Below, in pieces: positions 22,202 through 62,438 of a DNA stretch of 64,000 nt. Source of the DNA: Magnolia sinica (taxonomy: Eukaryota > Streptophyta > Magnoliopsida > Magnoliales > Magnoliaceae); NCBI RefSeq assembly GCF_029962835.1, contig NC_080583.1:65643158-65707157 (forward strand), read 5' to 3'. The notes beneath the pieces are model-generated. The model searched no databases. It saw only the letters and a program-made list of their open reading frames with translations, and was not told where the DNA came from. The position numbers and the translations under genes were made by a program. How positions within the stretch are numbered: the first letter of the stretch is position 1; each line of letters begins with the position of its first letter.

Positions 22202-22612
22202 CTAGAATTTAAAAATTACAATCAAGGTAAGAAAAATAACCAAGACGACAACCAAAATTGCAATGACTCTCTCTCTATCTGATGGGGCAAGATCATCAGT
22301 CGACGTGGCCTTGGTTACCATGTCTCGGGTCATCTGGGTCATTTGTCGGATAAACGAAGTCGAAGAGTGATGGATGCTCACCTCATCAAAATATGCGGCA
22401 ACCTGAAGCACTGGAGATTTTGTGAGAGGTCTTGACGGTGCACTGGTCTTACTAAAATAATTATCCCAACATGCAACAGCTTCCTTCCAATTCTTGAAGG
22501 CTCGGTATCTCCCCCCACTAAATCTCTCCACTTTTAATCGAGCATCGTCCCATGTCAGATATATACCTAGCCGATTTCCCACCAAGACAACATAGTACTT
22601 CTCCTTTCCCAT
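22202..22612 (-). CDS. ORF with RNase H1 N-terminal/viroplasmin-like domain and C-terminal membrane segment
   Basis: The frame starts MGKEKYYVVLVGNRLG and is open for 136 codons. Residues about 4-48 (KYYVVLVGNRLGIYLTWDDA...GGRYRAFKNWKEAVACW) match the pattern of the small domain that binds RNA/DNA hybrids at the N-terminus of RNase H1 and in caulimovirus viroplasmin. Residues about 114-136 (VIAILVVVLVIFLTLIVIFKF) form one strong membrane segment at the very end, as in tail-anchored proteins. The catalytic RNase H domain is absent. A splice acceptor (TTACAG) lies directly before the ATG, so an upstream exon may exist. It lies in line with the Harbinger genes; whether it belongs to the transposon or to the host is not settled. 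Confidence 0.6.
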   Translation of the reverse strand: MGKEKYYVVLVGNRLGIYLTWDDARLKVERFSGGRYRAFKNWKEAVACWDNYFSKTSAPSRPLTKSPVLQVAAYFDEVSIHHSSTSFIRQMTQMTRDMVTKATSTDDLAPSDRERVIAILVVVLVIFLTLIVIFKF

Positions 22613-22996
22613 CTGTAATGACATGGAGGGAATAGGGACAACATTTGGGAATCGAATTAGGATCACGAAATAGAAAACATGTATTATTGCACTACCGAAC
22701 AGAAGAAGTACATTACAACCTTACCAATTATTAAAAGAAAGAAGAAGTTGTAAGTACGTACCCTTCCTCTAAACGAAGTGTATGGTCCATTCCGTCTTAA
22801 TGTGCATAATACAAGCATGTGAGTACATATATCAAAGATGTTAAATAACAGATATACTCATTATCACAGAAGTCATAATGGTATACACTACGCATATACC
22901 AGCATATATCAATCCAAAAAAACAATCATCATGTCAATTAAAGTTATTACATGCCCGGATAAGAAACAAAATAATAGAACCAGTGACCACACCCTA

Positions 22997-24149
22997 TCAG
23001 ACGGATCCAACACCTCCATCACCGAAGTTATCACAAAGTGTTTTCTTTAACCACTCCACTCGGCGCTCAGGTCGAAGACTGACAAAGAACGATGTCAGCT
23101 TCTCATCCTTACTCAAGATCTGATCAACTTCAAGAAACTCTGAGTTGGTCAAGCCTTCCACCTCTTCTAGTACATCAAGTACTTTGACCGTGCGATTCAC
23201 CTCTTTGCCGATGCCAAAATTAAGCATAGCTTCTGCAACGGTCTGTAGAGAGGTCTTGAGTACATCACAAAGTCGAGGAGGGCGCGATCGTTTCCTTGTT
23301 GTGGTCTCACCTCGGCTACCATCGGAATCAGCAGTGCGAGTAGGAGTGCTACGGGAGCTGCGATGTCCCGTTGAAGGACTGTCCGACGAAAATGGAATGG
23401 TCCCTGTGGAGTTTGTTACATGATCCTCTAAGAGGTCAATCGTTTCATCCATATCATCATCAATTTCTCTCCATGCATCATTAAGATTTCGTTGAAGACA
23501 AGAAGATGATGCTAATGCGGCCATACTCCTACTGCCTTGCACATAACGTCCTGTGGCTTGGTCGGATACGACAATAACTGCAAGGTCATCCATTCTATAG
23601 ATGCGTTTCCCATGGAGTCTTTTGGCACGCGGGTGAGACTATAGCCGTATAAGACAATTGTAGGTCAGTAAGTATTAGATATGGATGTAAAATGAGAATT
23701 TCAACTTTACTAAATCTTACCCTAAGATATTTCTCCCATACTTCATTAAGAGCCGTGACCACTATCCTCTCGTTGTCCCATCCAAACCCATTAGCTGTTA
23801 GCATGTCCTTCATTGCATTATACTCTCTCTTGTAATACCTCAACCAATTCGACACGTTCTGCCACTTGACGACTACGTCAGTATGCTTTGTAACTTCTTC
23901 GGAAGCAATTTGGTACGCCTCCCGCTTCAAACCGCTATCAGCTTTATGTCCTAGTGCAACTTATTCGAGAAATGTGTCGAAAAGAACCTGGTCCATAGCA
24001 ATAGTCCATTTGATTTTTAGGGCTCGGGACTGAGGCTCGGTTAGCGATTTCACCATCTTCCCGCGTGGAGAACATCAAGCGGGCACCACCGGTGTTTTTA
24101 CCAGTGATTGCGTTGGTGTCGATGTATCATTGAACAATGAGTCTGCCAT
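22997..24149 (-). pseudogene. PIF/Harbinger ORF1, Myb/SANT-like DNA-binding protein, two in-frame stops
   Basis: Two exons: 23721-24149 and 22997-23638, with a GT/AG intron between. The start reads MADSLFNDTSTPTQSLVK. The Myb/SANT-like core is in exon 1 (WQNVSNWLRYYKREYNAMKDM, then SGFGWD-like NGFGWDNERIVV, then VWEKYLRSHPRAKRLHGKRI across the junction). The C-terminal part is rich in Ser/Thr/Arg with SRGETTTRKRSRPPRL. In this family ORF1 helps the transposase bind the element ends and enter the nucleus. Two in-frame stops lie in the first 75 codons (after VVPA and after DTFLE), so the copy is probably dead, although an internal ATG at 23930 keeps the rest open. Confidence 0.75.
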
Positions 24150-24387
24150 TTTACCTGAATATCAAATATGTATGATTTTTGGCAATTGTCAACCATAATC
24201 GTGAAAATGGATAAGGCTAAAAAAAAAAGAAAAAAAAAAGGACACAGTAAAAATTCATTGGTCATTAGTTAACCAACGATTAACCCAGTCAGATTTTGGG
24301 TGATCATAATTCCATTGTTTGGAACTTAATATTTTTTGAAACTAAATATTACCAACTAAGTAATGAAAATTAAACATATAAAATCGA

Positions 24388-24986
24388 TTATCTACTCCTA
24401 CTATTCTGCTGCGCATCTGCCCACATTCTGGTTGCAATGTCATCGCGCACTCGAATCCAAGCATTTTTTCACGCTGAGTCACTCGCAGCAACCATTGTCG
24501 CTCGTCATTCATTGATACCTCGTGAGGCGTTGAGATACCCTCCCCATCGGCAACAGATATACCAGCGTATTCGTGGTCTTGAGGAGACTCATTTTCGGTA
24601 CGTATAAAATTGTGTAGAACATAGGAGGCTATTCACAATCTTAACCTGTGTGTGAAATTCATACTGCATAGCGCTCTTCAAGATGGAAAATCTGTCTTTC
24701 AAAACATCGAAACAACGCTCGATTGCATTGCGCAATTGTGTATGTCGGTAATTAAACAACTCCTTCATGTTGGCAGGTGCTCTCCCGGTTCAATACTCCT
24801 GTAAGTGGTATTGAACCCCCCGGAATGGAGCCATAAAATAGGGTGAATGAGTGTATTCAACGTCGACAACATAATATTTTCCTATACATTCAAATCAATG
24901 TTCTATTAAGTGGAAAACTAGAAGAAATCATAGTTATGAAATAGATTGACAATCTTTGAACAGATAACCAGTATCGTGTGGGACAA
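24388..24986 (-). pseudogene. PIF/Harbinger transposase, 3' half
   Basis: The minus strand encodes the second half of the DDE_4 nuclease: KYYVVDVEYTHSPYFMAPFRG (second Asp in VVDV, where the family usually has VDAG), then FNYRHTQLRNAIERCFDVLK (catalytic Glu in IER), LHNFIRTE, and the C-terminus RDDIATRMWADAQQ ending in TAA at 24388-24390. An in-frame stop follows HLQEY and there is at least one frame change in the segment after LLRV. An intron seems to lie between about 24890 and 24975. The upstream half of the gene is at 61629-62438, 36.6 kb away, because of the copia insertion. Confidence 0.85.
24982..24986. repeat. Target site duplication of the copia element, left copy
   Basis: GACAA precedes the left LTR. 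The right copy, GACAT at 61629-61633, differs at one base. This fits the 5-bp duplication made by LTR elements. Confidence 0.75.
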
Positions 24987-26918
24987 TGTAAGTGTTATGG
25001 TCTCATGCTCCTTTGATTGTCAAATTTTGTTGTGCCAAAACTTCTATCTGTGTCTTATGTTTGTATGTTGATATATATATGATCAAGACACTGCATCACA
25101 ATGGTTCAAGACATGTATGGTGCTCTGCTTCAAGAAATGTTAAGTCATGTACTTTAAGCATCAATGTTCAGAGCTACATCGATAAGAAGAGTACATTTCA
25201 AGACTCAAGTACAACTCAAGATGAAGTTTAAGTTCAAGCTTTCGAAGATCTCAAGATCAAGCTACATCAAGTAGAGATCTCAAGCTTCAAAAGGTTCAAA
25301 GGTCAACCATTATCTGAAAAGAATAAAGTTCAATGTTCATACTTAATGATCCAGGTATGATAGACCTTAGATTAACCTTAGGGTAGGTCATTTTGTATAC
25401 ATAATTCAAAATGAATCTATTTATATGAATTGGTCTATTCTAAGACTAGTCCTAGACCTTGTTCGACTAGTCCTAGCACTGGTTCGACCAGTCCAAGAAA
25501 TTCCATGACCAGTCTTAAGTTGTTGAAGATTTTTGAAATTTTTTAGTTACTCTACGACCAGTCCTGGAGACTATTCGACCGGTCATAGGGAGGTCACGAC
25601 TCGACCTTCGACCAGTCCTAGAACTACGACTCAAACTCCAACGACCAAGCCTGGTTGTCTACATCTAGTCCTGGGTCAGCTATGACCGGTCGTAGGTGGT
25701 CCGCGACCAATCGTAGACTCCCTAAGACCAGTCGTAGAACGGTTTTCAAAGATCGCGTTTAATAATTCAAAATGTCGTTGAAGCTACGACCAGTCGAAGG
25801 GTTCTTAAGACCAGTTGTAGACGTGGTCTTTTCATCTATAAATTGAACACGAGTTTCAGAGTTTTTCATCGATTAATTTCAAGAAAATTCAGGCCTCCAC
25901 TTTGAGATAAGTTTGTTTATTTTAAGCTACGTTGTGCATATTTAATATTTTTTTTGTTAGCTTTTCTTATTTGATTTTATTCCTATATTCCAATCTTATA
26001 TAAAAAGAGGAATTGCTATATTCCTTCTTCTTGGAATCAAAATCAAATAGAGCTAAGCCCATTTGATTTAATTTAAAATCAATTAGAACTTAGAACCATT
26101 GTAAAGTGAGTATTAGACATTGAACGTTGATTCGAACATTTACTCCGATTGGTTCTACCGGGTTACTACAAAAAGGAGAAATCCAGGTATTTTACGTTTA
26201 TGTAAAATTTCTATTCATTTGGTTTTTGTTTGAGATTCGCCAGAAAATTCTCATTGTGTAGTTATCTGAGGAGAGTCAGAAAACTCAAAAAGTGTGGGTT
26301 TTTGGATTATGTAAGCCCAAGTTAAAAAGACACAATTGTGAAGGTTTTAGGTGAACCTATGAAACCTATTTTGTTAGTGAACGCTAATATCCCCTGTGTG
26401 AGGATATTAGGAGTGGAGTAGCATTCTGTGTGGCTGTTGTTGAATAGTTAGTGTACACATAGGCGAACCACTATAATTCTGTCTTGTGGTTTGAATGCTT
26501 GCTTAAGTTTTATATCTTTTATCATTCAAATTTGTGCAATGTATGTGTGGATATGAATGTTGTAAAATTTACATTTCAAGCACAGTGGGAATGTTGTAAT
26601 AATTTAGATTTAAATTCCTGCAATTTATTTCAATTCCTTGCTATTTATTTTTCTCTCCGGTTTGAGTTTTTGATACAAAGGACGTTCTAGAAATAAGGTT
26701 GTCCTGCCATAAACTCTTAGTTTTTATAGTGTAAGGTTGTCCTTAGAACTGAATTCGTATCAACCTCTTGATTCTTGTTTATTGAGGTTGCTTTTATTTC
26801 AGCATTGTGAATTGATTTATTTTATTTGATTATCATATTCGTTTATTCCGCTGTTAAAGTTTTATTTTGGTATCGTCCTATTCACCTCCCCTCTAGGACG
26901 TATAACTAGGCCATTTCA
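24987..26918 (+). repeat. 5' LTR of the copia element
   Basis: 1932 bases, beginning TGTAAGTG and ending CCATTTCA before the primer site. The stretch 25440-25830 is crowded with short GACCAGTC/GACCGGTC motifs. It is matched throughout by 59695-61628. Confidence 0.92.
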
Positions 26919-26932: not shown

Positions 26933-27002
26933 CTAATAGCTCGCTCTTATTACTTTTTATTTGGATTTATTTCCTGAGCTAACGATCTAAACTATTTAAA
27001 AG

Positions 27003-30000
27003 ATGTCAAATTTTGATAGCCTATCAGTCACTAGGCCTCCACCCTTTGATGGCTCCAACTATGCCTATTGGAAAGCCAGGATGAGGATCTTCTTCAAATC
27101 AATGGATGAGAGTGTGTGGCAAGCCACAGTGACTGAATGGAACCCACCTACCACTAAAGTGACTGGTATCGATGGTTCAAAATCAATGAGAGTAACACCG
27201 TATTTCTCATGGAGCACTCTTCAGAAAAATGAGAGTAGTGCCAATGCAAATGAACTAAATGCAATCACTTGCGCACTATCACCGAATGAGTTCAAAAAAA
27301 TCATATCCTGTGATACTACAAAGCAAGTCTGGGATATATTAGAAATGACACACGAGGGTACTACAATTGTCAAAAAATCTAAAGTCCAACTCCTCACAAC
27401 CAAATTTGAAGAAATTCATATGGAGGAAAATGAAATGTTTATGGACTTTTACACAAGATTAAATGACATTGTAAACTTAATGTAGGTCTTGGTGATAAAA
27501 TTCCAAAAAGTAAAGTGTGTGCGAAGATACTACGCTCTCTTCCTGAACGGTTCAACTCTAAAGTAACCACGATCCAGGAACTTCGTGATACGGACAATAT
27601 GAGGGTAGAAGAACTAGTTGGTTCTTTACAAACGTATGAGTTAAACTTTAAAGCTCTTAAAAGTAAATCTATCGCTCTTAAATCTTCTAAATGTATTTCT
27701 CAAGAAAACTCTGATTCTGAAGATGATATGGCTCTTTTAGCGAAAAAGTTTTACAAGATTTTTAAGAGTAAAAAGAAGGTTGATTTTCAAAAATTAAATG
27801 ATAAGAAAATATCAAAACCTAAATCTAAAACTTGGAAGTCTTTTAAAGATAGTCAATGTTACAACTGCCAAGAATATGGGCATTTAGCAAACAAATGTCC
27901 TAAAGAGGACAAACCCAAAAAGAAGGGTATGTTGGCTACTTGGGATGAATCATCTGATTCTGAAGCTTCTTCTGAATCAGAAGATTCTGAAATCGAGTCG
28001 GGCAGTGAAGTTAAAGCCCTTATGACTCTAGCCAAATGCACTTTTTCAGATCGTGATGATTCAATTAGCGAAGAAAATCTGAATAGTGATTATGAAAATG
28101 AAGATGACCTTCAAGACGCTTACAATGTCCTATACAAGGAAAGTTGTAAAATTACTGTCAAACTTAAACTTCAAAAAGAAAAGTTTTTTAAACTCAAAGA
28201 ATGTTTTCAAGATCTTGTTTTAGAAAAATCTCAAATTTCAGATGGTTTTAAAAAATCAAAATGCGATTTAGAATTCAAAACCTCACTGATTGAAAATCTG
28301 AAATCTGAAAATGAGAAACTTAAAAATGAAGTATCTTCTCTTCTGAGTTTAAAGGATATATGGAGGTATGCCCAAGGAGATCCAAAGTTAGAAAAACTTT
28401 TATCTGGATCTAGAAAATGTGGCGACAGATCCGGGTTGGGCTACGATAAAAATGTTCCTCCTAAACAAAAGTATACTTATCCTAAGTTTGTGAAAGGAGA
28501 GTCCTCTAACTCAAAAGGGAGAAATACTAGTCAAGGTTTTTCTAAAAATACAAAAGCTTTTCAAAAACCTAAAAGCAGCTTTGTCAACTTTAAAAATCAG
28601 AACAAAAATGCACTAGCTGAAAAGATAGTTGATTTACTTAAGGAGCTCTTAAAATCTAACTCAGTAGCTCATTCTTATAACAACAGACAGAAGAAGACCA
28701 ACTATACTCCTAAACCCAAAACATTTATGAAATGGGTTCCTAAGGTTACCTGCTTGGTTGCCCACACTGCTTTCAAAGTAACAAGTAATTCGAAGTGGTA
28801 CCCTGATAGCGGGTACTCAAGGCATATGATAGGCGACAAGACTTTATTCACCGACCTTAAAGATATGACTGATGGAATAGTCACATTTGGTGATGGTAGC
28901 AACTGCAAAATTATTGGTCAAGGTACGGTTCAACTCTATAACCTCCCCTTATTTAAGAATGTTTTATATGTTCAGGGACTAAAACCCAACCTGTTAAGCA
29001 TATCTCAAATATGCAATAACAACCATAGTGTGAAATTTTCCAATCAAGGTTGTGAAATCATAAATAAAAAGGGTTCTGTTATATTAACTGGTCACAGAAC
29101 TTCTGAAAACTATTATATTGTATGCGATGGCAGCTCATCTAATCAATTGTGCTACATAGTCCATACCGACGAGACAGAATTATGGCATAAATGCCTTGGA
29201 CATGTACACTACCATAATTTATATAGATTGAGCAAAGGAGAACTAATTAAAGGTCTACCAAAGTTGTAAAAAGTAAACAAAATATGTAGTGAATGCCAGT
29301 ATGGTAAAAAACTAGGAGCTCTCACAAAAAGGTGAACTCCAATGTCACATTAAGACCACTCGAGTTACTCCACATGGATCTTATAGGACCTACAAGGACG
29401 GAGAGTCGAGGTGGCAAAAAATACATCCTGGTAATTGTGGATGATTTTACCAGATTCACTTGGGTAGCTTTCTTAAGAGATAAATCAGAAGCCCTTGATG
29501 AAGTGAAAAAGATTATCAAACAGATCCAGATTGAAAAAAGTTCTCAAGTCTGTAAGATCCGTAGTGATCATGGATCTGTAGTAGTTTTGAGAAATTCTGT
29601 AGCGATTAGGGAATATCGCATGAATTCTCTGCGCCCAAAACACTACAATAAAATGGAATTGTGAAAAGGAAAATAGAGTGCTTCAAGAAATGGAAAATGT
29701 AATGTTGAATAGTATGAAGCTCCTTAGAAATCTTTGGGTTGAAGCAGTGAATACCGCCTGCTATATTATTAACCGGGTTTATACATGTAAATCTAATAAT
29801 AAAACGGCTTATGGACTTTGGTTTGATAAGAAGCCTACTGTCAAATACTTTCGAGTTTTTGGTAGCGAGTGTTATATTTTGCGTGACTGTGAAAATCTGG
29901 GAAAGTTTGACACTAAAAGTGACGAAGGCATCTTTTTAGGATACTCTTTAAACAGTCGAGCATATCGTGTACTGAACAACTGGACTGGTGTGATTCAAGA

Positions 30001-31756
30001 GTCCATTAATGTGGTCATTGATGATCACTTGAATACACCTGCCCCAAGTTCAGATAATGATGTTCTTTTAATTGACAAACTAGATACTTCATCAAATCAA
30101 GAAAACTCTGAACTGAGGACTGTCAAAGGTCATCCAACCACTCAAATTCTTGAAAACCCTCTCACTGGTGTGCACACTCATAGACAATTAGAAGACATAT
30201 GTAATTATGTGTGCTTTACATCCCAGATAGAACCGGTGAATATAAAAGAAGCACTTTCTGACGAAAACTTGATAGTAGCTATGCAGGAAGAACTTAATCA
30301 ATTTGTTCGAAATGATGTCTGGTATCTTGTTCCTAGACCTAAAGATAAACATATTATCGGAACAAAATGGATTTTAAAAAATAAGTTTGATGAACTTGGT
30401 AACATTATTCGAAATAAGGCAAGACTGGTTGTACAAGGGTACACTTAAATTGAATGCATCGATTACGATGAAACCTTTGCCCCAGTTGCTCACCTTGAAT
30501 CAATCAGACTTTTTATATCCATTGCATGCTATAGAAAATTTAAGATTTATCAAATGGATGTAAAGAGTGCTTTTTTGAATGACGATTTACATGAAGAGGT
30601 ATATGTTGAACAACCTACAGGGTTTGAAGACCCTAAGTTTACTGATCATGTATACCATCTTAAAAAGGCTCTCTATGGTCTAAAATAAGCTCCTAGAGCA
30701 TGGTATGAGAAATTGACTAAGTTTTTACTCAGTCATAATTTTTAAATGGGCAATGTTGATAAGACGTTTTTTGTTAAGAAAAACAATAATGATGTTTTAA
30801 TGGTTCAGATATATGTTGATGATATTATTTATGGATCAACTTGTACTAACATGACTATTGAGTTTGCAGATTTAATGAAATCTAAGTTTGAGATGAGCAT
30901 GGTTGGGGAATTACATTATTTTCTAGGGTTGCAAGTAAAACAACAACCTGATGAAATTTTTATTTCTCAAACCAAGTATGCTTTGAACTTGATTAAAAGG
31001 TTCGGATTTGAGAATGGTAAGAATTTTGATACTCCCATGAGTACATCTTTAATACTCTCAAAGGACTCTACAGGTAAAGATGTGGATCCTAAATTGTGTC
31101 GTAGCATGATGGGCAGTTTGCTTTATTTAACTGCTAGTAGACCTCATATAACTTTCAGTATTGATATTTGTGCTAGATATTAGTCTAATCCTAAAGAATC
31201 TCATTTAAATGTTGTTAAGAGGATTATTAGATATGTTGCAAGTTCTGTGCATTTGGGTCTTTGGTATCCATATGATACTAGTGTCCAGTTGGCTGGGTAC
31301 TCAGATGCTAATTGGGCTAGTAATATTGATGATAGAAAATCAACCAGTGGTGGTTGTTTTTATATTGAAAATTACTTGGTTTCTTGGTTTAGCAAGAAGC
31401 AAAGTTCTATATTGCTCTCAACTGCTAAGGCTGAATACATTGCAGCTGGAAATGCACGTACTTAGCTTGTTTGGATGAAACATATGTTAAGTGATTATGG
31501 AATTACATAGGACTCAATAGTTTTATATTGCGATAATTCCAGTGCAATAAATATTTCTAAAAACTCAATCCAGCATTCACGTACTAAGCACATTGACATT
31601 AGGTATCATTACATTCGTAAATTAATGGAAGAAAAGATAATATCTTTGGAATATATACCGACCGAGACTCAACTTGCTGACATTTTCACTAAACCGCTTG
31701 ACAAAAACAAGTTTAGTAAATTGAAATTTGATCTTGGTATGTGCAATTTAAATTGA
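27003..31756 (+). pseudogene. Copia gag-pol region (broken)
   Basis: Parts in order: gag core from about 27003 (PPPFDGSNYAYWKARM); a CCHC knuckle CYNCQEYGHLANKC near 27858; protease with DSG near 28800 (WYPDSGYSRHMIGD); the GAG-pre-integrase motif LWHKCLGHVHYHNL near 29180; integrase core from about 29350 (LLHMDLIGPTRTESRGGKKY); reverse transcriptase from about 30340 (GTKWILKNKFDELG) with YVDD near 30813; and RNase H with SDANWASNIDDRKSTSGG near 31300. Integrase before reverse transcriptase defines Ty1/copia. It is a fossil with several breaks, so no working protein is expected. Confidence 0.92.
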
Positions 31757-32211: not shown

Positions 32212-33344
32212 AATGGATCCCAAAGGGAAAAAGAAATCCTGCCGTGGTCCATCTTCTTCTAGATTAACTCCTATCACACAACGCCATCTTCGGTCTCCCG
32301 AAAATGATCCATCTGATGTATGGGATTTTTGTATGCGCAATGTCATCGTTGAACGTCCAGTTGATCTTAACCACATTGCTCAATTTGGTGTCCTACCTCT
32401 ACTTTAATCTATAGGTTGGGATAACATCTTACATTGGGGTGGGCCTGCATACCAGTCTATTACTCAATCCATGTTAGCATGCATCTCTGATTTTTCATTT
32501 GAGAATTTAACATTTAAAATTGATACTAAAGAAGGTTTATTTGAAGTAGATCGACATTTAATAGCTGGTCTCATGGGAATCCCTGTTAATGATGAGGGTA
32601 TTACCATTCATACATTATCTGAAAAACCCTCTGAATCAGAAAAACAGATGCTCACTAGAGATTTATGCAATATGGAAGTGCAATGGACCCATAAAGGAAA
32701 TGTGCTCCCCTTAAGGTATTTGTTACCCAGATACAGGGTTCTTCATAGAATCTTTATCTCAAATCTGTATCTGCGGTCTGGCAACAAAACAGAACTAACT
32801 GCCTTTATGGTTCGTGTTTTGTATTGTGTCATTACTGGTGTAAAGATCTGTCTACCTTCTTTAATTTGTTATTCCATCATTCAGTTTCGAATCCATCTTG
32901 GTCATAGTGACCTTCCATTTGCCTATCTTATGACTGTTTTAGCTACTCACATGCTCGTGGCTATGCCTGTTGGAGAGGCCCCTATTCATCATCTTATTTT
33001 TAACAATACAAATATTAATAAGATGAAATTGGGATTGGCTCCTGGCCAAGTGAATGTTGGTAGTAGTGGTACTGAAGCTGGGAATGAAGTAGAAGATGCT
33101 GACAATCTTCTTAATGATGTTGATATGAATGATATTTTCTTGATTCAGATTCTGAAAATGATCCTGAATATGAGCCATCTGAGTTTGATGCTTGTCTTCG
33201 TGCTCTAGAGGAGAAAGTAGAGTATATGAATGTTGCTCATGATCTTCAGTTTAAATATATGCGCAAGTATCTTAGGCGCTTGAATAAGGGGATGCATAAA
33301 CTTGATCCTACCATTCCTGCTCCATCTTCAGGATCTGATTGAGT
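32212..33344 (+). pseudogene. Extra ORF region of the copia element downstream of pol (broken)
   Basis: Open sequence continues after pol on the same strand. It starts MDPKGKKKSCRG and includes DTKEGLFEVDRHLIAGLMGIP and IQFRIHLGHSDLPFAY, then an acidic tail. The middle resembles the 'putative plant transposon protein' type of domain found in 3' extra ORFs of some plant LTR elements; I am not certain of this. Its function is unknown. It is a relic. Confidence 0.5.
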
Positions 33345-33721
33345 GATTTTAATTCTTGGTCTGTATTAAATTTCATACTTATGTTGGATTGTGCACTTTA
33401 GTTTGTTTGCTGACTTTTTAGTTAAACTGATAAATGGATTGTGAACTTTTACTTGCTTATATATTGTTGATTAAATCCATCTATTACTCCATCTTTTGAT
33501 CCTTTACATTGTTTCTTCCTTTGACATTTTGTGACAAAAAGAAGGAGAAGGCTTTTGGAAGCTCTTTTAGAAGCTTTTGGTTTGATTGCTTATGGATATG
33601 AGTAGGACTATAATATATGTAGCAATCATTATATTTTTCATGTGTGCTACTACTCAGGGGGAGTAAGTATAGATGAATATTATGTGCTTGCTAGTTTATG
33701 ACAACTGGTGTATGATTCTTT

Positions 33722-33738
33722 CACTACGTGAAAAATGG
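33722..33738 (+). repeat. CACTA left terminal inverted repeat
   Basis: CACTACGTGAAAAATGG. The first eight bases match the right end perfectly in inverted orientation; beyond that the match is partial. Confidence 0.85.
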
Positions 33739-33744
33739 AAAAAA

Positions 33745-50462: not shown

Positions 50463-50553
50463 GTAGGGGTGCCGTCACTTATGTGCTTTCTGAATAAGGT
50501 TGATGCTATTGATGATCTAGATCTACTGGAACTTGTAGAGATGGAACTCCGTG
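50463..50553 (+). pseudogene. Captured exon of organellar elongation factor Tu
   Basis: The open stretch reads [18 protein letters not shown] then [12 protein letters not shown], matching the part of mitochondrial/bacterial-type EF-Tu that contains the GTP-binding NKVD motif (residues about 180-210 in a mitochondrial EF-Tu). It is bounded by a TTGATTCAG acceptor and a GTATGT donor in the right phase, so the exon was taken with its flanking introns. The rest of the gene (G1 loop, domains 2 and 3) is absent. It lies inside the CACTA element, so I call it a transduplicated fragment, not a gene. Confidence 0.82.
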
Positions 50554-50939
50554 GTATGTACTATGACCATTGTCATTCATTAATTTATTTATTAATGTTT
50601 TGGTTGTGAGGCATCCTATTATGCTTGTTTGAGAGAAACTGCTTTGTTTGTTAAACAGCAGTAGCTACTTGTAATATATGATTTTGTTGATGGTTGTTGT
50701 CACATATTTGAAGATCTGTTGTATTGTATTTATATGTGGTGTCCTCAGGTCTTACATGAACTAATTGATGACTTCAATTGGACATGCCAAATTTGGATCA
50801 TTAATGATTAATATACTATCCTATCAACCATTTCTCAAAGCATTTGCATCCATTAGTAGCTATCTATCATCCTTAGCTTTTAAGCCCTTTCAGTGGGGTT
50901 ACAATTGGTTTTATTTCACAATAAACTAAACTTTACAAC
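50554..50939. other. Captured intron or spacer, no gene
   Basis: AT-rich, intron-like sequence downstream of the EF-Tu exon, probably part of the captured host intron. No coding sequence is seen. Confidence 0.4.
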
Positions 50940-51260
50940 TAAGCTATCAATGAGCTTCTTTCAAAGGATCAAAATTGATAGCACTCTTACCTAAAAAGTA
51001 TTGAAGGTCTTTAAAGTCCTTTAGCTTAAAATTTTGAGAGAGATTTTTCAAAATTTTCACATATCCTACAACACCACTTGTGATGATCAAATTATCTATG
51101 TCAACAACACAAAGTTTCATTTATATATTTCTTCACAAAAGTGCATGTATTAGTAAAAGGGAAATAAAATTACTTGAATAAAGTATTCTCTAACCTTTGT
51201 AACCAAACTTTAGATGATTGTTTTAGATTATGGAGTGCCTTTTTTGGTTTGCATGCATGC
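50940..51260 (-). pseudogene. Ty1/copia reverse transcriptase relic (fossil)
   Basis: Minus-strand translation shows pieces resembling the copia RT: a KALYGLKQ-like region, then NLIITSGVVGYVKILKNL and LKDFKDLQYFLG, comparable to YVDDLIITG...MKDLG.L.YFLG. It is old and badly decayed. It lies between the two captured exons. Confidence 0.6.
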
Positions 51261-51690
51261 CTCAACTTCATATGATCATAAAATTCCATAGGTTGATCAA
51301 TATATATGATGAAACCCTACTCTCGCACAGCAATGTGAGAATAACAGCACCCCAGATATGTATATCTTTTATCTTTCTTGTATGTAGTTACGTGTCGAAT
51401 TTTTTCATTCTTTGATTCATTACACTCAATTCAGGTATGGTTTGCACCAATTCAAGAGACTGTACATTAGGCATTCAATATATAAGACTGGAGTGAGACT
51501 GATTAGGCATTTAAATGTGTTGCAGGATGTTGTTTGAATTGCTTGTCCTAATAGGTGCACACGTTGGGATGGATTAGACTTCTATCTTGAGAAAATGCCA
51601 TGATTTCAGGTAATTATTGTAATGAAAAGTTAAAAAATTAAAAGAGAGAGAGATAATGAATTCATGGAAAGAAATGTTCTTTATCATTAG

Positions 51691-51826
51691 GGCTGCTTTC
51701 GCCGGGTTTGATGCAGAAATTGTCGCCAACTTCACAGAAAGACAGATAACATCAGTGGACACAGATTACAACCTGGATTTAAATAAGGTTCGAGGTGCCG
51801 TCAATAATGCTAACAGAATCCTCCAG
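51691..51826 (+). pseudogene. Captured exon of a TAG-type DNA-3-methyladenine glycosylase
   Basis: The open stretch AAFAGFDAEIVANFTERQI then DLNKVRGAVNNANRIL fits the middle of plant methyladenine glycosylase I (HhH-GPD) proteins, in which FDAE.VAKFTE, then VRGVVDN(A/S)NRIL are typical. A TCATTAG acceptor and a CAG/GTCAG donor bound it. The rest of the gene is missing. It is the second host exon inside the CACTA element and has the same orientation as the EF-Tu exon. Confidence 0.7.
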
Positions 51827-51888
51827 GTCAGATTGTTGATTGGACCTGATTTTATTTAAATGATCTTGATAATCCTTTTTATTTAAAT

Positions 51889-52222
51889 GAGCAGACCTGG
51901 ATGTGCGTCGGAGCTATTTGGATGTTGAGCGGGGGTCCCTGGAAGGTGGGAGCCGCTGTTATGACCATGATGAAGCTGTCCATTCCCTATGGACAGCATT
52001 GGAGTGGCCTGGCCATTTGGACAGACCATGTTTATGTATTTACTCAAAATTGATGGAGCAGACCCGGATGTGCGTCGGAGCTATCCGGATGTTGAGCGGG
52101 GGTCCCTGAAAGATGGGAACCGCTAATATGACTATGATGAAGCTGTCCATTTCCTATGGATAACATTGGAAGGGCCTAGCCAATTGGAGCAGGCCTTGTT
52201 TATATCTGTATTTGCAGGGACC
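51889..52222. repeat. 167-bp tandem duplication
   Basis: GAGCAGACC(T/C)GGATGTGCGT starts at 51889 and 52056. Each unit ends with a GATGAAGCTGTCCATT...GGACAGCATTGGA-like stretch. Its origin is unknown. Confidence 0.85.
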
Positions 52223-55200
52223 ACACCCTTAACCTATAACCTAAACCTATTCTCAAATCCCAAAACCTATAACTACAACCTAAACCTATAACCTAAACCT
52301 ATAACCTAAACTCAATTCCCTAAACTTAAACCTACAACCTAACCTAAACCTATACTTATTCCCTAAACCTATTCTCAAATCCCAAAACCTATAACCTAAA
52401 CCATACCCTAAACCTATAACCTATAACCGGAACCTATAACCTAAACTCAATTCCCTAAACCTTAACCTATAACCTAACCTAAACCTATACTTATAACCTA
52501 AACCTATTCTCAAATCCAAAAACCTATAACCTAAACCTATAACCTATAACCTATAACCTAAACTCAATTCCCTAAACCTTAACCTATAACCTAACCTAAA
52601 CATATACTTATAACCTAAACCTATTCTCAAATCCCAAAACCTATAACCTAAACCTATAACCTATAACCTATAACCTAAACCTATAACCTAAACTCAATTC
52701 CCTAAACCTTAACCTATAACCTAACCTAAACCTATACTTATAACCTAAACCTATTCTCAAATCCTAAAACCTATAACTATAACCTAAACCTTAACCAAAA
52801 ACCTATAACCTAACATAAACCTAAACCTATAACCTTAACCTAAACCTAAACCTATAACTTTAACCTTAACATATAACCTTAACCTAAATGTAAACCTAAA
52901 CCTAAACCTAAACCTATAACCTAAACCTATTCTCAAATCCCTAAACCTAAACCTAAACCTATAACCTAAACCTATTCTCAAATCTCTAAACCTAAACCTA
53001 AACCTTAATGTATTCTCAAATCCATAAACCTAAACCTACACCTAATCCTAATCTCAACTCCCTAACCTAAACCTAAACCAAAACTTGAAAACCAAAACCT
53101 AAACCCGATCCCGAACCCGAACCCGATTTCCTAAACCTAAACCTTAACCTATTCTCAATTCCCTAAACCTATTGCTTATAACCTAAACCGAAACCTAAAC
53201 CTATACCTTAACCTAAACCTAAACCTAAACCTATAACCTATAACCTATAACCTAAACATAAACCTAAAACCTAAATGTATTCTCAAATCCCTAAACCTAA
53301 ACCTACACCTAATCCTAATCTTAACTCCCTAACCTAAACTTAAACCTAAACTTGAAAACTCAAACCTAAACCCGATCCCGATCCCGATCCCGAACCAAAT
53401 TTCCAAAACCTAAACCTTAATGTATTCTCAAATCCCTAAACCTAAACCTACACCTAATCCTAATCTCAACTCCCTAACCTAAACCAAAACCTAAACTTGA
53501 AAATTCAAACGTAAACCCGATCCCGAACCCGAACCCGATTTCCTAAACCTAAACCTTAACCTATTCTCAATTCCCTAAACCTATAGCTTATAACCTAAAC
53601 CTAAACCTAAACCTAAACCTAAACCTTAACTTAAACCAATAACCTATAACCTAAACCTAAACCTAAAACCTAAATGTATTCTCGAATCCCTAAACCTAAA
53701 CCTACACCTAATCCTAATCTCAACTCCCTAACCTAAACCTAAACTTAAACTTGAAAACCCAAACCTAAACCCGATCCCGAACCCGAACCCGATTTCCTAA
53801 ACCTAAACCTTAACCTATTCTCAATTCCCTAAACCTATAGCTTATAACCTAAACTTAAGCCTAAACTTAAACCTTAACCTAAACCTAAACCTAAACCTAA
53901 ACCTGTAACCTATAACCTAAACCTAAACTTAAAACCTAAATGTATTCTCAAATCCCTAAACCTAAACCTACACCAAATCCTAATCTCAACTCCCTACCTT
54001 AAACCTAAACCTAAACTTGAAAACCAAAACCTAAACCTGATCCCGAACCTAAACCCGATTTCCTAAACCTAAACCTTAACCTATTCTCAATTCCCTAAAC
54101 CTATTGCTTATAACCTAAACCTATACCTTAACCTAAACCTAAACTTAAACCTATAACCTATAACCTAAACCTAAACTTAAAACCTAAATGTATTCTCAAA
54201 TCCCTAAACCTAAACCTACACCTAATCCTAATCTCAACTCCTTAACCTAAACCTAAACCTAAACTTGAAACCCAAAACCTAAACCCGATCCCGAACCCGA
54301 ACCCGCTTTCCTAAGCCTAACCCTTAACCTATTCTCAATTCCCTAAACCTATAGCTTATAACCTAAACCTAAACCTAAACCTAAACCATAACCTAAACCA
54401 ATAACCAATAACCTAAACCTAAACCTAAAACCTAAATGTATTCTCGAATCCCTAAACCTAAACCTACACCTAATCCTAATCTCAACTCCCTAACCTAAAC
54501 CTAAACTTAAACTTGAAAACCCAAACCTAAACCTGATCCCAAACGCGAACACGATTTCCTAAACCAAAACCTTAACCCATTCTCAATTCCCTAAACCTAT
54601 ATCTTATCACCTAAACCTAAACCTAAACCTTAACCTAAACCAATAACCTATAACCTAAACCTAAACCTAAAACCTAAATGTATTCTCGAATCCCTAAACC
54701 TAAACCTACACCTAATCCTAATCTCAACTCCCTAACCTAAACCCAAACTTAAACTTGAGAACCCAAACCTAAACCCAATCCCGAACCCGAACCCGATTTC
54801 CTAAACCTAAACCTTAACCTATTCTCAATTCCCAAAACCTATATCTTATAGCCTAAACCTAAGCCTAAACCTAAACCTTAACCTAAACCTAGACCTAAAC
54901 CTGTAACCTATAACCTAAACCAAAACCTAAAAACTAAATGTATTCTCAAATTCCTAAACCTAAACCTACACCTAATCCTAATCTAAACTCCCTAACCTAA
55001 ACCTAAACCTAAACTTGAAAACTAAAACCTAAACCCGATCCTGAACCCGAACCCGATTTCCTAAACCTAAACCTTAACCTATTCTCAATTCCCTAAACCT
55101 ATAACTTATAACCTAAACCTAAACGTAAACCTAAACCTAAACCTAAAACCTAATGTATTCTCAATTTCCTAAACCTAAACCTACACCTAATCCTAATCTC

Positions 55201-58200
55201 AACTCCCTAATCTAAACCTAAACCTAAACTTGAAAACCAAAACCTAAACCCAATCCCGAACCCGAACCCGATTTCCTAAACCTAAACCTTAACCTATTCT
55301 CAATTCCTTAAACCTATAGCTTATAACCAAAACCTAAGCCTAAACCTAAACCTAAACCACTTAAACCAAAACTTGTAACCTATAACCTAAACCTAAACCT
55401 AAACCTAAAACCTAAATGTATTCTCAAATCCCTAAACCTAAACCTATACCTAATCCCAATCTCAACTCCTTAACCTAAACCTAAACCTAAACTTGAAAAC
55501 CAAAACCTAAACCCGATCCCGAATCTGAACCCGATTTCCTAAACCTAAACCTTAACCTATTCTCAATTCCCTAAACCTATTGCTTATAACCTAAACCGAA
55601 ACTTAAACCTATACCTTAACCTAAACCTAAACCTAAACCTATAACCTATAACCTAAACCTAAACATAAAACCTAAATGTATTCTCAAATCCCTAAACCTA
55701 AACTTACACCTAATCCTAATCTCAACTCCCTAACCTAAACCTAAACCTAAACTTGAAAACCAATTCCTAAACCCGATCCCGAACCCGAACCCGATTTCCT
55801 AAATCTAAACCTTAACCTATTCTCAATTCTCTAAACCTATAACTTATAACCTAAACCTAAGCCTAAACCTAAACCTTAACCTAAACCTAAACCTGTAACC
55901 TATAACCTAAACCTAAACCTAAAACCTAAATGTATTCTCAAATCCCTAAACCTAAACCTACACCTAATCCTAATCTCAACTCCCTAACCTAAACCAAAAC
56001 CTAAACTTGAAAACCCAAACGTAAACCCGATCCCGAACCCGAACCCGATTTCCTAAACCTAAACCTTAACCTATTCTCAATTCCCTAAACCTATTGCTTA
56101 TAACCTAAACCAAAACCTAAACCTATACCTTAACTTAAACCTAAACCGAAACCTATAACCTAAACAAAAACCTAAACTTGAATGTATTCTCAAATCCCTA
56201 AACCTAAACCTACACCTAATCCTAATCTCAACTCCCTAACCTAAACCTAAACTTAAACTTGAAAACTCAAACCTAAACCCGATCCCGAACCCGAACCCGA
56301 TTTCCTAAACCTAAACCTTAATGTATTCTCAAATCCCTAAACCTAAACCTACACCTAATCCTAATCTCAACTCCCTAACCATAACCTAAACCTAAACTTC
56401 AAAACTCAAACCTAAACCCGATCCCGAACCCGAACCCGATTTCCTAAACCTAAACCTTAACCTATTCTCAATTCCCTAAACCTATAGCTTATAACCTAAG
56501 CCTAAACGAAACCTAAACCTTAACCTAAATCTAAACCTAAACCTAAACCTAAACCAATAACCTATAACCTAAACCTAAAACCTAAATGTATTCTCAAATC
56601 CCAAAACCTAAACCTACACCTAATCCTAATCTCAACTCCCTAACCTAAACATAAACTTGAAAACCCAAATCTAAACCCTATCTCGAACCCAAACCCGATT
56701 TTCTAAACCTAAACCTTAACTTATTCTCAATTCCCTAAACCTATAGCTTATAACCTAAACCTAAACCTAAACCTAAACCTATATAACATATAACCTATAC
56801 CTAAGCCTAAAACCTAATGTATTCTCAAATCCCTAAACCTAAAACTAATCTCAACTCCCTAACCTAAACCTAAACCTAAACTTGAAAACCCAAACCTAAA
56901 CCCGAACCCGATTTCCTAAACCTAAACCTTAACCTATTCTCAATTCCCTAAACCTATAGCTTATAACCTAAACCTAAGCCTAAACCTAAACCTTAACCTA
57001 AACCAATAACCTATAACCTAAACCTAAACCTAAAACATAAATGTATTCTAGAATCCCTAAACCTAAACTTACACCTAATCCTAATCTCAACTCCCTAACC
57101 TAAACCTAAACCTAAACTTGAAAACCCAAACCTAAACCCGATCCCGAACCCAAACCCAATTTCCTAAACCTAAACATTAACATATTCTCAATTCCCTAAA
57201 CCTATAGCTTATAACCTAAACCTAAACCTAAACCTAAACCTTAACCTAAACCTAAACCTAAACCTAAACCTAAACCTATAACATATAACCTAAACCTAAA
57301 CCTAAAACCTAAATGTATTCTCAAATCCCTAAACCTAAACCTACACTTAATCCTAATCTCAACTCCCTAACCTAAACCTAAACCTAAACTTGAAAACCCA
57401 AACCTAAACCCGATCTCAAACCCGAACCGAATTTCCTAAACCTAAACCTTAACCTATTCTCAATTCCGTAAACCTTAACCTATAACCTAACCTAAACTTA
57501 AACCTATTACCTGCACTTATAACCTAAACCTATAACCTAAACCTAAGCTTAAAACCTAAGCCTAAACCTAAAATCAAAATGTATTCTCAAATCCTTAAAC
57601 CTAAACCTACACCTAATCCTAATCTCAACTCCCTAACCTAAACTTAAACCTAAACTTGAAAACCCAAACCTAAACCCGATCCCGAACCCAGACATGATTT
57701 CCTAAACCTAAACCTTTACCTTAACCTATTCTCAATTCCCTAAAGCTATAACCTATATACTATAACCTGTAACTAAAACCTAAACCTTAACCTAAACCTA
57801 TAACCTAAACCTAAACCTTAACTTAAACCTAAACCAAAACCTATAACCTAAACCTTAACCTATAACCTATAACCCATAACCTATAACCTAAACTTATAAC
57901 CATTAACCTAAAACCTAATCGTAAACCTAAACTTAAACCTATAACCTAAAACCTAATACCTAAACCTAAACCTAAAACCTAAATGTATTCTCAAATCCTT
58001 AAACCTAGATCTACACCTAATCCTAATCTCAACTCCCTAACCTAAACCTAAACCTAAACTTGAAAACCCAAACCTAAACCCGATCCTGAACCCGAACCCG
58101 ATTTCCTAAACCTAAACCTTAACCTTAACCTATTCTCAATTCCTTAAAGCTATAACCTATATACTATAACCTGTAACTAAAACCTAAACCTTAACCTAAA

Positions 58201-58468
58201 CCTAAACCAAAACCTATAACCTAAACCTTAACCTATAACCTATAACCTATAACCTAAACTTATAACCTATAACCTAAAACCTAATCCTAAACCTAAACCT
58301 AAACCTATAACCTAAAACCTAAAACCTAAACCTAAACCTAAAACTCAAATGTATTCTCAAATCCTTAAACCTAGACCTACACCTAATCCTAATCTCAACT
58401 CCCTAACCTAAACCTAAACCTAAACTTGAAAACCCAAACCTAAACCCGATCTCGAACCCAAACCCAAT
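52223..58468. repeat. CCTAAA-based satellite, about 6.2 kb, with a higher-order unit of about 250 bp
   Basis: The base unit is the hexamer AACCTA, often altered to AACCTAT. It is not the plant telomere heptamer CCCTAAA, although CCCTAAAC appears at spacers. A higher-order unit recurs about 20 times from near 53100: TGTATTCTCAAATCCCTAAA, then a CACCTAATCCTAATCTC block, then AAACTTGAAAAC, then CCCGATCCCGAACCCGAAC, then TATTCTCAATTCCCTAAAC and a stretch of plain hexamers. The CCCGATCCC landmark sits near 53107, 53517, 53770, 54287, 55036, 55513, 55774, 56030, 56280 and 57138. No coding sequence is present. Confidence 0.92.
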
Positions 58469-58480
58469 TGCTGTAATAAT

Positions 58481-58681
58481 GTAGCCCAATCACATGGCAA
58501 GAAACAAGAATGTATCCCTTTTAACACATGCCCCTTTTTACAAAGCTTTAATTTTTGTTGTTGTTTCTATTAACTTGAATTGTAGCCCAATCATATAGCA
58601 ACAAACAAGAATGTATCCCTTTTAACACATGCCCCTTTTTACAAAGCTTTAATTTTTCTTGTTGTTTCTATTAACTTGAAT
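58481..58681. repeat. About 100-bp tandem duplication
   Basis: GTAGCCCAATCA(C/T)AT.GCAA...AACAAGAATGTATCCC starts near 58481 and 58582, each ending in CTATTAACTTGAATT. Confidence 0.88.
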
Positions 58682-59104
58682 TGAAACACTTTATTGCATT
58701 ATTTACTTGCATTAGTTTTATTTTTAAAAAGTGCCCACTTTTTTGGAAGAAGTTTATGCAATTCTTCATGATTCTGAATTATAGTGTTTTGTTGGTTTAA
58801 TATTTTTTTTTTAGATGAAAGACATAAAAAAAAAATTGTTGTTGATTTTTTTCATTTTTTTATTTATGATGTTAAACTTATATGTATTTATGCGTGGATG
58901 AATGTAATGTGGATAAGATTGTTTGTGTTTGGATGGATGTAGTTTATGTTTGGATGAATGTAGTTTATGTTGGATTTACGTAGTTTTAGTTTAGATGGAT
59001 ATGAATGTGAATATGATGAAATATATTATATAACAGGTGTATATCAGGAAGAAGATGATGAAATATATTATAACAGGTGTATATTGATCCTCTCAAATTT
59101 GAAA

Positions 59105-59600
59105 ATGTGCTTTGAAGGCTCATAAGGGATGGTCCATGACAGTCCCTTTTAAGGACAGTCTGTGGCTGTCCTTTGAAGGCTCATAAGAGATGGTCCATGA
59201 CAGTCCTTTTTAAGGACGGTCCATAGCCGTCCTTCAAAGCGCCATAAGAGACGATCCATGACAGTCCTTTTTAAGGACGGTCTATGGCCGTCCTTTGAAG
59301 GCTCATCAGAGACGGTTTATGACAGTCCTTTTTAAGGACGGTCGGTCCATGACCGTCATTTTAAAGGACGGTCGATGGCCGTCCTTTGAAGGCTCATAAG
59401 AGACGGTCCATGACTGTCCTTTTTAAGGACGGTCCACAACCGTCCTTTTTAAGGACGGTCCACGACTGTCCTTTTTTCGTCAATAAGAATGATGGTTTTT
59501 GATAGTCCTTTAAGTAATACAACACGTCAAAATTTGACGGCCCATGCGACGGTCCATGACTGTCCTTTTTGGTCATTTGAGACAGTTTTATACCGTCCTT
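59105..59600. repeat. CACTA right subterminal repeats
   Basis: Alternating AAGGACGGTC(C/T)ATG and (C/T)(A/G)TGAC(A/C)GTCCTTTTT motifs, about 20 in total, in both orientations. Neighbouring copies can pair as hairpins. They mirror the motifs at 33745-34080. Confidence 0.85.
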
Positions 59601-59604
59601 TTTT

Positions 59605-59621
59605 GCAGTTTTGACGTAGTG
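59605..59621 (-). repeat. CACTA right terminal inverted repeat
   Basis: Read inward it is CACTACGTCAAAACTGC, followed outward by the TTT target duplication at 59622-59624. Confidence 0.85.
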
Positions 59622-59681
59622 TTTATTATGCATGTGGTGCTTCTCTTATTTTTATATGAGTGTGTTTTGTCACAAATTTGA

Positions 59682-59693
59682 CAAAGGGGGAGA
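59682..59693 (+). other. Purine tract of the copia element
   Basis: CAAAGGGGGAGA lies directly before the 3' LTR, as expected for the second-strand primer. Confidence 0.85.
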
Positions 59694-59694
59694 T

Positions 59695-61628
59695 TGTAAG
59701 TGCTATGGTCTTATGCTCCTTTGATTGTCAAATTTTGTTGTGCCAAAACCTCTATCTGTGTCTTGTGTTTGTATGTTGATATATATATATGATCAAGACA
59801 CTGCATCACAATGGTTCAAGATATATACAGTGTCTGCTTCAAGAAATGTAAAGTCATGTACTTTAAGCATCAATGTTCAGAGCTACATCGATAAGAAGAG
59901 TACATTTTAAGACTCAAGTACAACTCAAGATGAAGTTTAAGTTCAAGCTTTCGAAGATCTCAAGATCAAGCTACATCAAGTAGAGATCTTAAGCTTCATA
60001 AGGTTCAAAGGTCAACCATTATTTGAAAAGAATGAAGTTCAATGTTCATACTTAATGATCCAGGTATGATAGACCTTAGATTGACCTTAGGGTAGGTCAT
60101 TTTATATACATAATTCAAAATGAATCTATTTATATGAATTGGTCTGTTCTAAGACTAGTCCTGGACCTTGTTCGACTAGTCCTAGCACTGGTTCGACCAG
60201 TCTAAGAAATTTCATGACCAGTCCTAAGTTGTTGAAGATTTTTGAAATTTTTTGGTTACTCTACGACCAGTCCTGGAGACTGTTCGACCGATTGTAGGGA
60301 GGTTACGACTCGACCTTCGACCAGTCCTAGAACTATGACTCAAACTCCAGCAACCAAGCCTGGTTATCTATGACCAATCCTGGGTCAGTTACGACCGGTC
60401 GTAGGTGGTCCACGACCAGTCGTAGACTCCCTAAGACCAGTCGTAGAATGGTTTTCAAACATCGCGTTTAATAATTCAAAATGTCGTTGAAGCTACGACC
60501 AGTCAAAGGGTTCTTAAGACCAGTCGTCGACATGATCTTTTCATTTATAAATTGAACACGAGTTTCAGAGTTTTTCATCGATTAATTTTAAAAAAATTCA
60601 AGCCTCCACTCTGAGATAAGTTTGTTTATTTTAAGCTATGTTGTGCATATTTAATATTCTTTTTGTTAGCTTTTCTTATTTGATTTTATTCCTATATTCC
60701 AATCTTATATGAAAAGAGGAATTGTTGTATTCCTTTTTCTTGGAATCGAAATCAAATAGAGGTAAGCCCATTTGATTTAATTTAAAATTAATTAGAACTT
60801 AGAACCATTGTAAAGTGAGTATTGGACATTGAACGTTGATTCAAACATCTACTCCGATTGGTTCTACCGGGCTACTACAAAAAAGAGAAATTTAAGTATT
60901 TTACGTTTATGTAAAAGTTCTATTCATTTGGTTTTTGTTTGAGATTTGCCAGAAAAACCTCATTGTGTGGTTATCTGAGGAGAGCCAGAAAACTCAGAAA
61001 GTGTGGGTTTTTGGATTGTGTAAGCCCAAGTTAAAAAGACATAATTGTGAAGGTTTTAGGTGAACCTGTGAAACCTATTTTGTTAGTGAACGCTAATATC
61101 CCCTGTGTGAGGATATTAGGAGTGGAGTAGCATTCTGTGTGGCTATTGTTGAACAGTTAGTGTACACACAGGGGAACCACTATAATTCTTTGTCTTGTGG
61201 TTTGAATGCTTGTTTAAGTTTTATAACTTTTATTATTCAGATTTGTAGAATGTATGTGTAGATGTGAATGTTGTAAAATTTACATTTCAAGCACAGTGGG
61301 AATGTTGTAATAATTTAGATTTAAATTCCTGTAATTTATTTCAATTCCTTGCTATTTATTTTCCTCTCCGGTTTGATTTTTTGATTCAAAGGACGTTCTA
61401 GAAATAAGGTTGTCCTGCCATAAACCCTTGGTTTTTATGGTGTAAGGTTGTCCTTAGAACTGAATTCGTATCAACCTCTCAATTCTTGTTTATTGAGGTT
61501 GCTTTTGTTTCAGCATTGTGAATTGATTTATTTTATTTGGTTATCATATTCGTTTATTCCGTTGTTAAAGTTTTATTTTGGCATCGTCCTATTCACCCCC
61601 CTCTAGGACGTATAGCTAGGCCATTTTA
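59695..61628 (+). repeat. 3' LTR of the copia element
   Basis: 1934 bases, beginning TGTAAGTG and ending CCATTTTA (the CA end has changed). It is followed by GACAT, the right target duplication. It matches 24987-26918 throughout with scattered substitutions. Confidence 0.92.
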
Positions 61629-62438
61629 GACATGCAAGGGATCATCTGATTGGGTCAATGCGTTATGTAGCACCCTCGCATTCGAAGCAGAACCCTTCCA
61701 ACCGGCCAATACATATGTAAAATTTATATCAAAGGAACATGCCACCAGTACGTTTTGGGAGAGGACCCCTTTCCGATTGTGCAAGCTCGCCTGGTCAACT
61801 GCCAGCACATGTGCTGGAATGTGTGTACCATCAATTGCACCAATGCAATCCTAAATGTGAAGAATCAAATGTCGTCTAGGCTGAAGGTGTAAATGGAGGG
61901 AAGTAAAAATAACATATATAGAAAACAGACCCAATGGAAATAATACCTCAATGTAAGCAGACCAATTTACATTTGCTTGGATCTCAGATGGCGTCTCTGA
62001 TTCGGCTTGTTTAACGAAATCGGGGTACATTGATATAAGTGCATTTAGAACACGGTGAAAGTGTTGACCAACGATTTCATCCGATTGAATAAATCTATGA
62101 CCTATAACCCGATTCTGAATATTGTGCCCTAACGTGTGTAGGAAAATAACTACTTATTCTTCAAGACTAACATTACGAGTATCACGGAGCTGTGTCTTCT
62201 CGCATAGCTTCGTACATAGTTTAAAAAATGTATCTCAATTCATCCTAAGTTAATCAACACAATCTCCATCGCTGGCTTGAATAATAGAATTGATGAACCT
62301 CGCTCGCTCATCATCCCTATGATGGGCCGGTTGTTTGAACATGTATAGACGACAGTATTTCCCAACAGCCTATACGCAAGCTGCCATCGTATGAATAACA
62401 ATAGCCCTCTCCATCTCTTCCTCATCTTCATCATCCAT
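61629..62438 (-). pseudogene. PIF/Harbinger transposase, 5' half
   Basis: The minus strand starts MDDEDEEEMERAIVIHTM at 62438. Then come HNIQNRVIGHRFIQSDEIVG and HFHRVLNALISMYPDF (helix-turn-helix-like region), a short intron at about 61850-61950, then CIGAIDGTHIPAHV with the first catalytic Asp, and VLAGWKGSASNARVLHNAL before the copia target site. Four or more in-frame stops occur upstream of the intron (after TMAACV, DCVD, LRMN and SLEE). The gene resumes at 24986. Confidence 0.85.

Follow-up and report, generated by a model that had tools for sequence, protein, structure and literature searches.

A CACTA element with a one-direction telomere-like array, probably a trait of its large family, in a nest of successive insertions in Magnolia sinica

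A 64,000-nucleotide stretch of the genome of Magnolia sinica (Magnoliales, Magnoliaceae; contig NC_080583.1, positions 65643158-65707157; "the window" below) holds a nest of mobile elements which, very probably, was made by successive insertions and contains a CACTA element from a large family whose right-end module is linked to a (CCTAAA)n array running in one direction. According to this history, a PIF/Harbinger transposase gene would have been split by a Sirevirus-type copia retrotransposon, and the 3' linker of the latter would then have been split by a CACTA element without recognisable transposase. Two long terminal repeats (LTRs), one shown to be solo and one probably so, would have entered the CACTA element before or after its landing. 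The CACTA element would have been moved by a transposase supplied in trans, its array would grow and shrink through unequal exchange, slippage or gap repair, and members of the family would bring telomere-like satellite DNA to internal places of chromosomes. The first-pass annotation of this DNA had proposed the nest (Harbinger > copia > CACTA > LTRs), which target duplications, a frame-keeping join and empty sites confirm; it was silent on the gene fragments and the telomere-like array within the CACTA element. The genome searched was the 1.84-Gb assembly (127 contigs), and feature coordinates are collected in Table 1.

The CACTA element lies between the two polypurine tracts of the copia element. 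Its borders read TTT followed by CACTACGTGAAAA (from 33722) and TTTTGACGTAGTG (ending at 59621) followed by TTT, and its terminal inverted repeats (TIRs) are identical, without gaps, in 21 of 30 bases. The window contains 1043 CACTA/TAGTG pairs, four of which combine identical 3-bp flanks with 15 or more equal bases among the 30 of the TIR; this pair has 21 and the next one 16. Subterminal repeats are present at both ends as clusters of GACGGTC/GACCGTC (33897-34062 and 59215-59548). Furthermore, a 33-base pattern representing the copia sequence without the insertion (one TTT, up to 3 mismatches) was found 158 times genome-wide (74 + 84), whereas the reversed-pattern control gave 0; the first 100 of these 158 matches have 1 or 2 mismatches.

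The copia element, in turn, is flanked by GACAA and GACAT (4 of 5 bases equal) and separates two parts of one transposase gene, as had been claimed before: these match DDE_Tnp_4 profile positions 1-61 and 104-149, and if the flanks are joined with one copy of the duplication, the transposase frame is kept up to a GT...AG intron. A 173-base query consisting of both flanks was uninterrupted across the junction in 40 of 40 matches (best 40 of 234 candidates; 84-92% identity). The best uninterrupted Harbinger relative among the matches scored (92%) is found on the same contig at 65588063-65588235, about 55 kb before the window, and is possibly a local duplicate. Together with ACTAC/ACTAC around an LTR inside the CACTA element, GACAA/GACAT and TTT/TTT are the matched duplications listed by the first-pass annotation, and all of them hold. 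Empty sites, which it had suggested looking for at 24986/61629, 33721/59622 and 44957/47033, were found for all three junctions, in the same genome and not in other accessions.

The first-pass annotation regarded the whole insertion order as fixed. For Harbinger, then copia, then CACTA, the empty sites uphold this, and the order is secure, because a 36-kb copia RNA carrying a CACTA element is very unlikely. The claim fails for the LTRs. They may have arrived as part of the CACTA element: nesting leaves their entry and its landing unordered, because a cut-and-paste CACTA element moves with its contents.

For comparison of family members, the right end of the CACTA element (59000-59621) was used as query. 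It gave 1732 first-look candidates, the best 40 of which were scored; all 40 are near full length, the query itself included. About 10 kb were fetched around 20 of the 39 other matches (16 best and 4 lower; L027 and L039, below, are among them). Both LTRs of the CACTA element had earlier been called solo. The LTR at 44958-47032 is a solo LTR: besides its ACTAC duplications, its empty site is uninterrupted in two paralogous units within the window, and copies of the LTR with their own duplications are present at the genomic loci L004, L008 and L009. In L009, a body encoding Retrotrans_gag and aspartyl-protease domains lies between two copies, with TTGAT duplications. Genome-wide, 41 further match rows were obtained for this LTR (best 40 of 10,126 candidates). 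The 6.3-kb LTR at 34180-40470, which sits between pieces of CACTA subterminal sequence, is probably solo as well, to judge from its TG...CA ends and its relative at 1-5181. That relative belongs to an LTR retroelement at the start of the window (1-5181, 5182-5552 and 5553 onward), with a very long LTR, of more than 5 kb, that extends past the window, and an inner part of only ~370 bp between primer-site-like and purine-rich motifs.

The CACTA element also contains exon fragments of two genes, encoding EF-Tu and methyladenine glycosylase; for the latter, a PDB search gave no convincing match. An 865-bp block around the EF-Tu exon gave 41 match rows, corresponding to 39 other genomic places in any context (best 40 of 204 candidates). 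Fourteen of these 39 are full length at 89-96% identity, and 38 include the exon. Of the 20 fetched relatives, L027 alone shares any of the block, namely the initial 128 bp, which do not include the exon. Two weak copia reverse-transcriptase fragments, both below the cut-off (E 0.00073 and 0.00059), lie between the captured exons (50950-51316, minus strand). No transposase was found among 166 open reading frames (ORFs) of at least 45 amino acids in 33722-52236 (E ≤0.01; 52227-59621 was outside the scan), which fits a non-autonomous copy; Pfam matches to YibE_F and ArAE_1 in these ORFs were taken as chance. CACTAC ends, a 3-bp duplication, direct and inverted subterminal repeats and the lack of a recognised transposase are shared with non-autonomous CACTA (En/Spm) elements. 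Exon fragments of two genes inside such an element are shared with Pack-CACTA elements, and the window CACTA element can be classified as non-autonomous and Pack-CACTA-like. It differs from both groups by its very large size (25.9 kb) and by a family trait, the long telomere-like array in one direction.

The LTRs and gene fragments could all have been inside the CACTA element before its jump into copia, so that there were three insertions at the locus and the CACTA element arrived loaded. We see in this a considerable chance, albeit clearly short of even. A DNA transposon carries its contents along when moving, and the 39 other places of the EF-Tu block point to a fragment common to several copies. 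Nothing decisive speaks against it; 26 kb is a large load to transpose, although CACTA elements of more than 20 kb are known. The relative L039 does not have the two LTRs and is neutral on their arrival inside a CACTA element.

The array of the CACTA element resembles the canonical plant telomere repeat (CCCTAAA heptamers) but differs from it in its unit, CCTAAA. CCCTAAACCCTAAA occurs 0 times in 49601-59621 of the window and 0 times in all 20 fetched copies. In eight 600-bp contig-end samples, TTTAGGG is present 14 times at contig C1; two samples have 1 or 2 heptamers, one consists of N only, and the others have none. Beside the right end, an array in the same direction is present in 20 of 20 fetched relatives, with CCTAAACCTAAA occurring 7 to 200 times and its reverse complement 0 times. 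Next to the right module, the array is between 0.6 and at least 8.8 kb long, with three arrays reaching the edge of the fetched DNA, and 18 of these 20 relatives have all six of the phrases interspersed in the window array. A 167-bp module at the array border was detected in nine relatives and not seen in eight; the remaining three could not show it. A complete relative of 8.7 kb, L039, has an AGT/AGT duplication, the same left TIR as the window CACTA element and a 0.7-kb array.

Genome-wide, a right-end 29-mer is present at 2,516 places (≤2 mismatches; control 0) and the exact 30-mer (CCTAAA)5 at 3,691 places (control 0); these totals are complete, whereas the places themselves are the first 100 of each. 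Pairing of arrays and right-end motifs was counted on the first 51.3 Mb of contig C1, with exact motifs only and a distance limit of 15 kb. At least 14 of the 46 array clusters there have a motif downstream on the same strand (0.25 expected), one has a motif upstream and none on the opposite strand. The array-carrying CACTA family appears to be large in this genome, with the array as a family trait. If all family copies had the sampled mean of ~5.4 kb, the arrays would total ~13 Mb, which is an upper guess.

That CACTA elements landed in pre-existing telomere-like arrays instead of carrying one is, in our view, very improbable. Arrays are indeed numerous (the 3,691 exact 30-mers), and 32 of the 46 clusters on the counted part of C1 have no exact right-end motif within 15 kb downstream. 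However, the window CACTA element and L039 each enclose their array within TIRs and have matching duplications, and 20 of 20 copies show it on one side, in one direction and adjoining the common right module. Less credible still is an assembly join or chimera in which unrelated contigs side by side mimic a nest: the nest is known from assembled sequence alone, and stretches of N exist elsewhere in the assembly (e.g., the contig-end sample mentioned above), but the window contains 0 N, and target duplications, a transposase frame across the join and exact empty sites elsewhere are not products of misjoins.

Several observations weigh against a nest of successive insertions with an array-carrying CACTA family. 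The window CACTA element and L039 are the only complete elements viewed end to end, and the two shortest arrays are without four and two of the six phrases. On the counted part of C1, just 14 of the 38 exact right-end motifs have the array 30-mer within 15 kb upstream, so that some family members may have a short array or none. As 12 of the 20 fetched copies hold this 30-mer, the fetched sample, for which best matches were chosen, leans to array-rich copies. At the 6.3-kb LTR there is no 5-bp target duplication (TCGAC versus GTCCT). Finally, no Harbinger TIR pair with a TWA duplication was found when 15000-22260 was scanned against 62300-64000.

Two further ideas about the array were dropped. 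A telobox (AAACCCTA) occurs once in the window array and 17 times across the 20 fetched loci. The age of the array cannot serve as proof that it predates copia: when it is cut into 24 chunks of 250 bp, the identity of each chunk to its nearest neighbour ranges over 81-96%, which is too mixed. Elsewhere in the CACTA element, the tandem units at 41683-44568 differ by a Kimura two-parameter distance (K2P) of 0.029 and diverged later than the copia LTRs did. A foldback-like repeat with inverted halves was noticed at 47240-47688, 21416-21713 and in parts of 41-45 kb, and is also present in fetched CACTA relatives.

The copia LTR pair has a K2P of 0.058 (93 transitions and 13 transversions at 1930 sites), corresponding to ~2.2 or 4.1 million years at substitution rates of 1.3e-8 or 7e-9. 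By several motifs the element can be assigned to the Sirevirus type (SIRE1/Maximus lineage of Ty1/copia). On the plus strand of the window, AGGGGGAG is present only twice, at 33656 and 59685, and the border of the 3' LTR reads GGGGGAGAT followed by TGTAAG (59685 to 59695; AT then TG). According to the part of PMC2829016 available, Sireviruses are defined by a AGGGGGAG tract that lies exactly 10 bp ahead of the 3' LTR and is followed by AT and TG; their linkers have four polypurine tracts on average, and their primer site is TATCAGAGC after ATTGG or a G variant. In the copia element, AGTGG is followed by TATCAGAGT (8 of 9 bases equal). Measured against this description, it is like Sireviruses in having two AGGGGGAG tracts (one 10 bp before the 3' LTR), the AT/TG junction, an inverted repeat around the terminal tract (25 columns in a local alignment, one mismatch and a gap of four bases), a C-rich signal close to the LTR ends (at 26883 and 61594) and an ORF past pol; a short TATCAGAG-type stretch may be its primer site. 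It is unlike them in having two tracts versus an average of four, in the final base of this site and in a coding region that is spread over several ORFs.

The outermost level had been annotated as a Harbinger element. Its transposase identity is supported, but its ends were not found; they may be outside the window or lost, and what is left is a degenerate remnant of the transposase and Myb genes. The transposase gene has stops and frame changes. PIF/Harbinger elements usually have a Myb/SANT-like ORF as their second gene, and the copy here is like them in combining a DDE_Tnp_4 transposase with such a neighbour; it is unlike them in being degenerate and in showing no TIRs or TWA duplication in the window. 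A scan for PIF-like end motifs gave a single right-side match, unpaired. In Pfam searches, no match was obtained for the ORFs at 61851-62153 and 62240-62440 of the 5' part, or for the piece at 24793-24882; a match to Adeno_52K was taken as chance. Beside the Harbinger genes, an ORF at 22202-22720 (minus strand) encodes a Cauli_VI / RNase H1 N-terminal domain (E 9.4e-12).

Table 1. Features of the nest (positions in the window).
Feature	Position	Strand	Evidence and remarks
Myb/SANT-like ORF	23595-23960	-	PF12776, E 5.4e-11
Harbinger transposase, 3' part of gene	24342-24986	-	DDE_Tnp_4 profile 104-149 in 24589-24789, Pfam E 7.9e-08
copia target duplication, left copy GACAA	24982-24986	.	sequence, empty sites
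copia, whole element	24987-61628	+	LTRs, target duplication
copia 5' LTR, 1932 bp	24987-26918	+	self-alignment, K2P
copia gag and pol pieces, several ORFs (gag, zinc knuckle, integrase-linked domains, RVT_2)	27000-31183	+	Pfam
Extra ORF past pol, position of Sirevirus env-like gene	32408-33208	+	weak Transposase_32, 36 bits, below cut-off 45
Extra polypurine tract AGGGGGAG	33656-33663	+	motif scan
CACTA target duplication TTT, left copy	33719-33721	.	right copy 59622-59624
CACTA element, 25.9 kb	33722-59621	+	TIRs 21/30, TTT both sides, 158 genomic empty sites
Probable solo LTR, TG...CA, 6.3 kb	34180-40470	+	self-BLAST, end inspection; relative of LTR at 1-5181
1.44-kb unit, ~2.2 tandem copies	41683-44867	+	self-comparison; present in relative L039
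Solo LTR, TG...CA	44958-47032	-	ACTAC at 44953-44957 and 47033-47037; strand taken from that of the gag ORF in L009
Small telomere-like array	49631-50095	+	GC skew -0.87
EF-Tu exon fragment, splice-like borders (by eye)	50463-50553	+	PDB phmmer E 3.5e-08; GTP_EFTU 17 bits, below cut-off 26.5
Methyladenine glycosylase exon fragment, splice-like borders (by eye)	51691-51826	+	PF03352, 27.4 bits, cut-off 25
167-bp repeat module, left edge of array	51889-52226	+	at that place in 9/20 relatives
Telomere-like (CCTAAA)n array, 6.2 kb, one direction	52227-58469	+	C 2004 versus G 172
Right-end module: subterminal repeats and TIR	58470-59621	+	aligned in 20/20 relatives
Terminal polypurine tract AGGGGGAG, 10 bp ahead of 3' LTR	59685-59692	+	motif scan
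copia 3' LTR, 1934 bp	59695-61628	+	LTR alignment
Harbinger transposase, 5' part of gene	61626-62440	-	DDE_Tnp_4 profile 1-61 in 61626-61850, Pfam E 6.2e-06
copia target duplication, right copy GACAT	61629-61633	.	sequence, empty sites

Nests of this sort are common in plant genomes, and the present one is ordinary as such; it is a relative-dating record with junctions verified by empty sites. The CACTA family weighs more, with its kilobase arrays in a fixed direction and at a fixed place beside the element end. Interstitial telomere-like repeats, often taken as traces of past chromosome fusions or repaired breaks, are known from seed plants; these are alike in placing telomere-like DNA within chromosomes and unlike in that here a DNA transposon carries it, with CCTAAA and not CCCTAAA as the unit. 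An internal telomere-like signal could then mark transposition and not fusion. Triticeae CACTA families such as Caspar contain internal tandem repeats, and tandem DNA inside a CACTA element is the likeness. The telomere-like unit and its fixed direction beside the right end set the Magnolia family apart, and no such array is described in the part of PMC2756281 available. In the review on telomeric-like repeats of seed plants (PMC8621592), as far as its accessible text goes, transposon terms appear only in the reference list. No CACTA family with telomere-like arrays was found in the accessible portions of the open-access literature (including PMC8978399, PMC8903248, PMC2756281, PMC7136903 and PMC8621592); as subscription literature was mostly outside this search, novelty is unproven.

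We put forward, as a tentative suggestion that is more apt to fail than to hold, that the family, with up to a few thousand copies, would be one of the main vehicles by which telomere-like satellite reaches internal chromosome sites in this plant, and that its one-direction, C-rich array would be a working, length-variable part of the element and not passive cargo. The array may have a role beside the right end, e.g. in replication, chromatin or excision repair.

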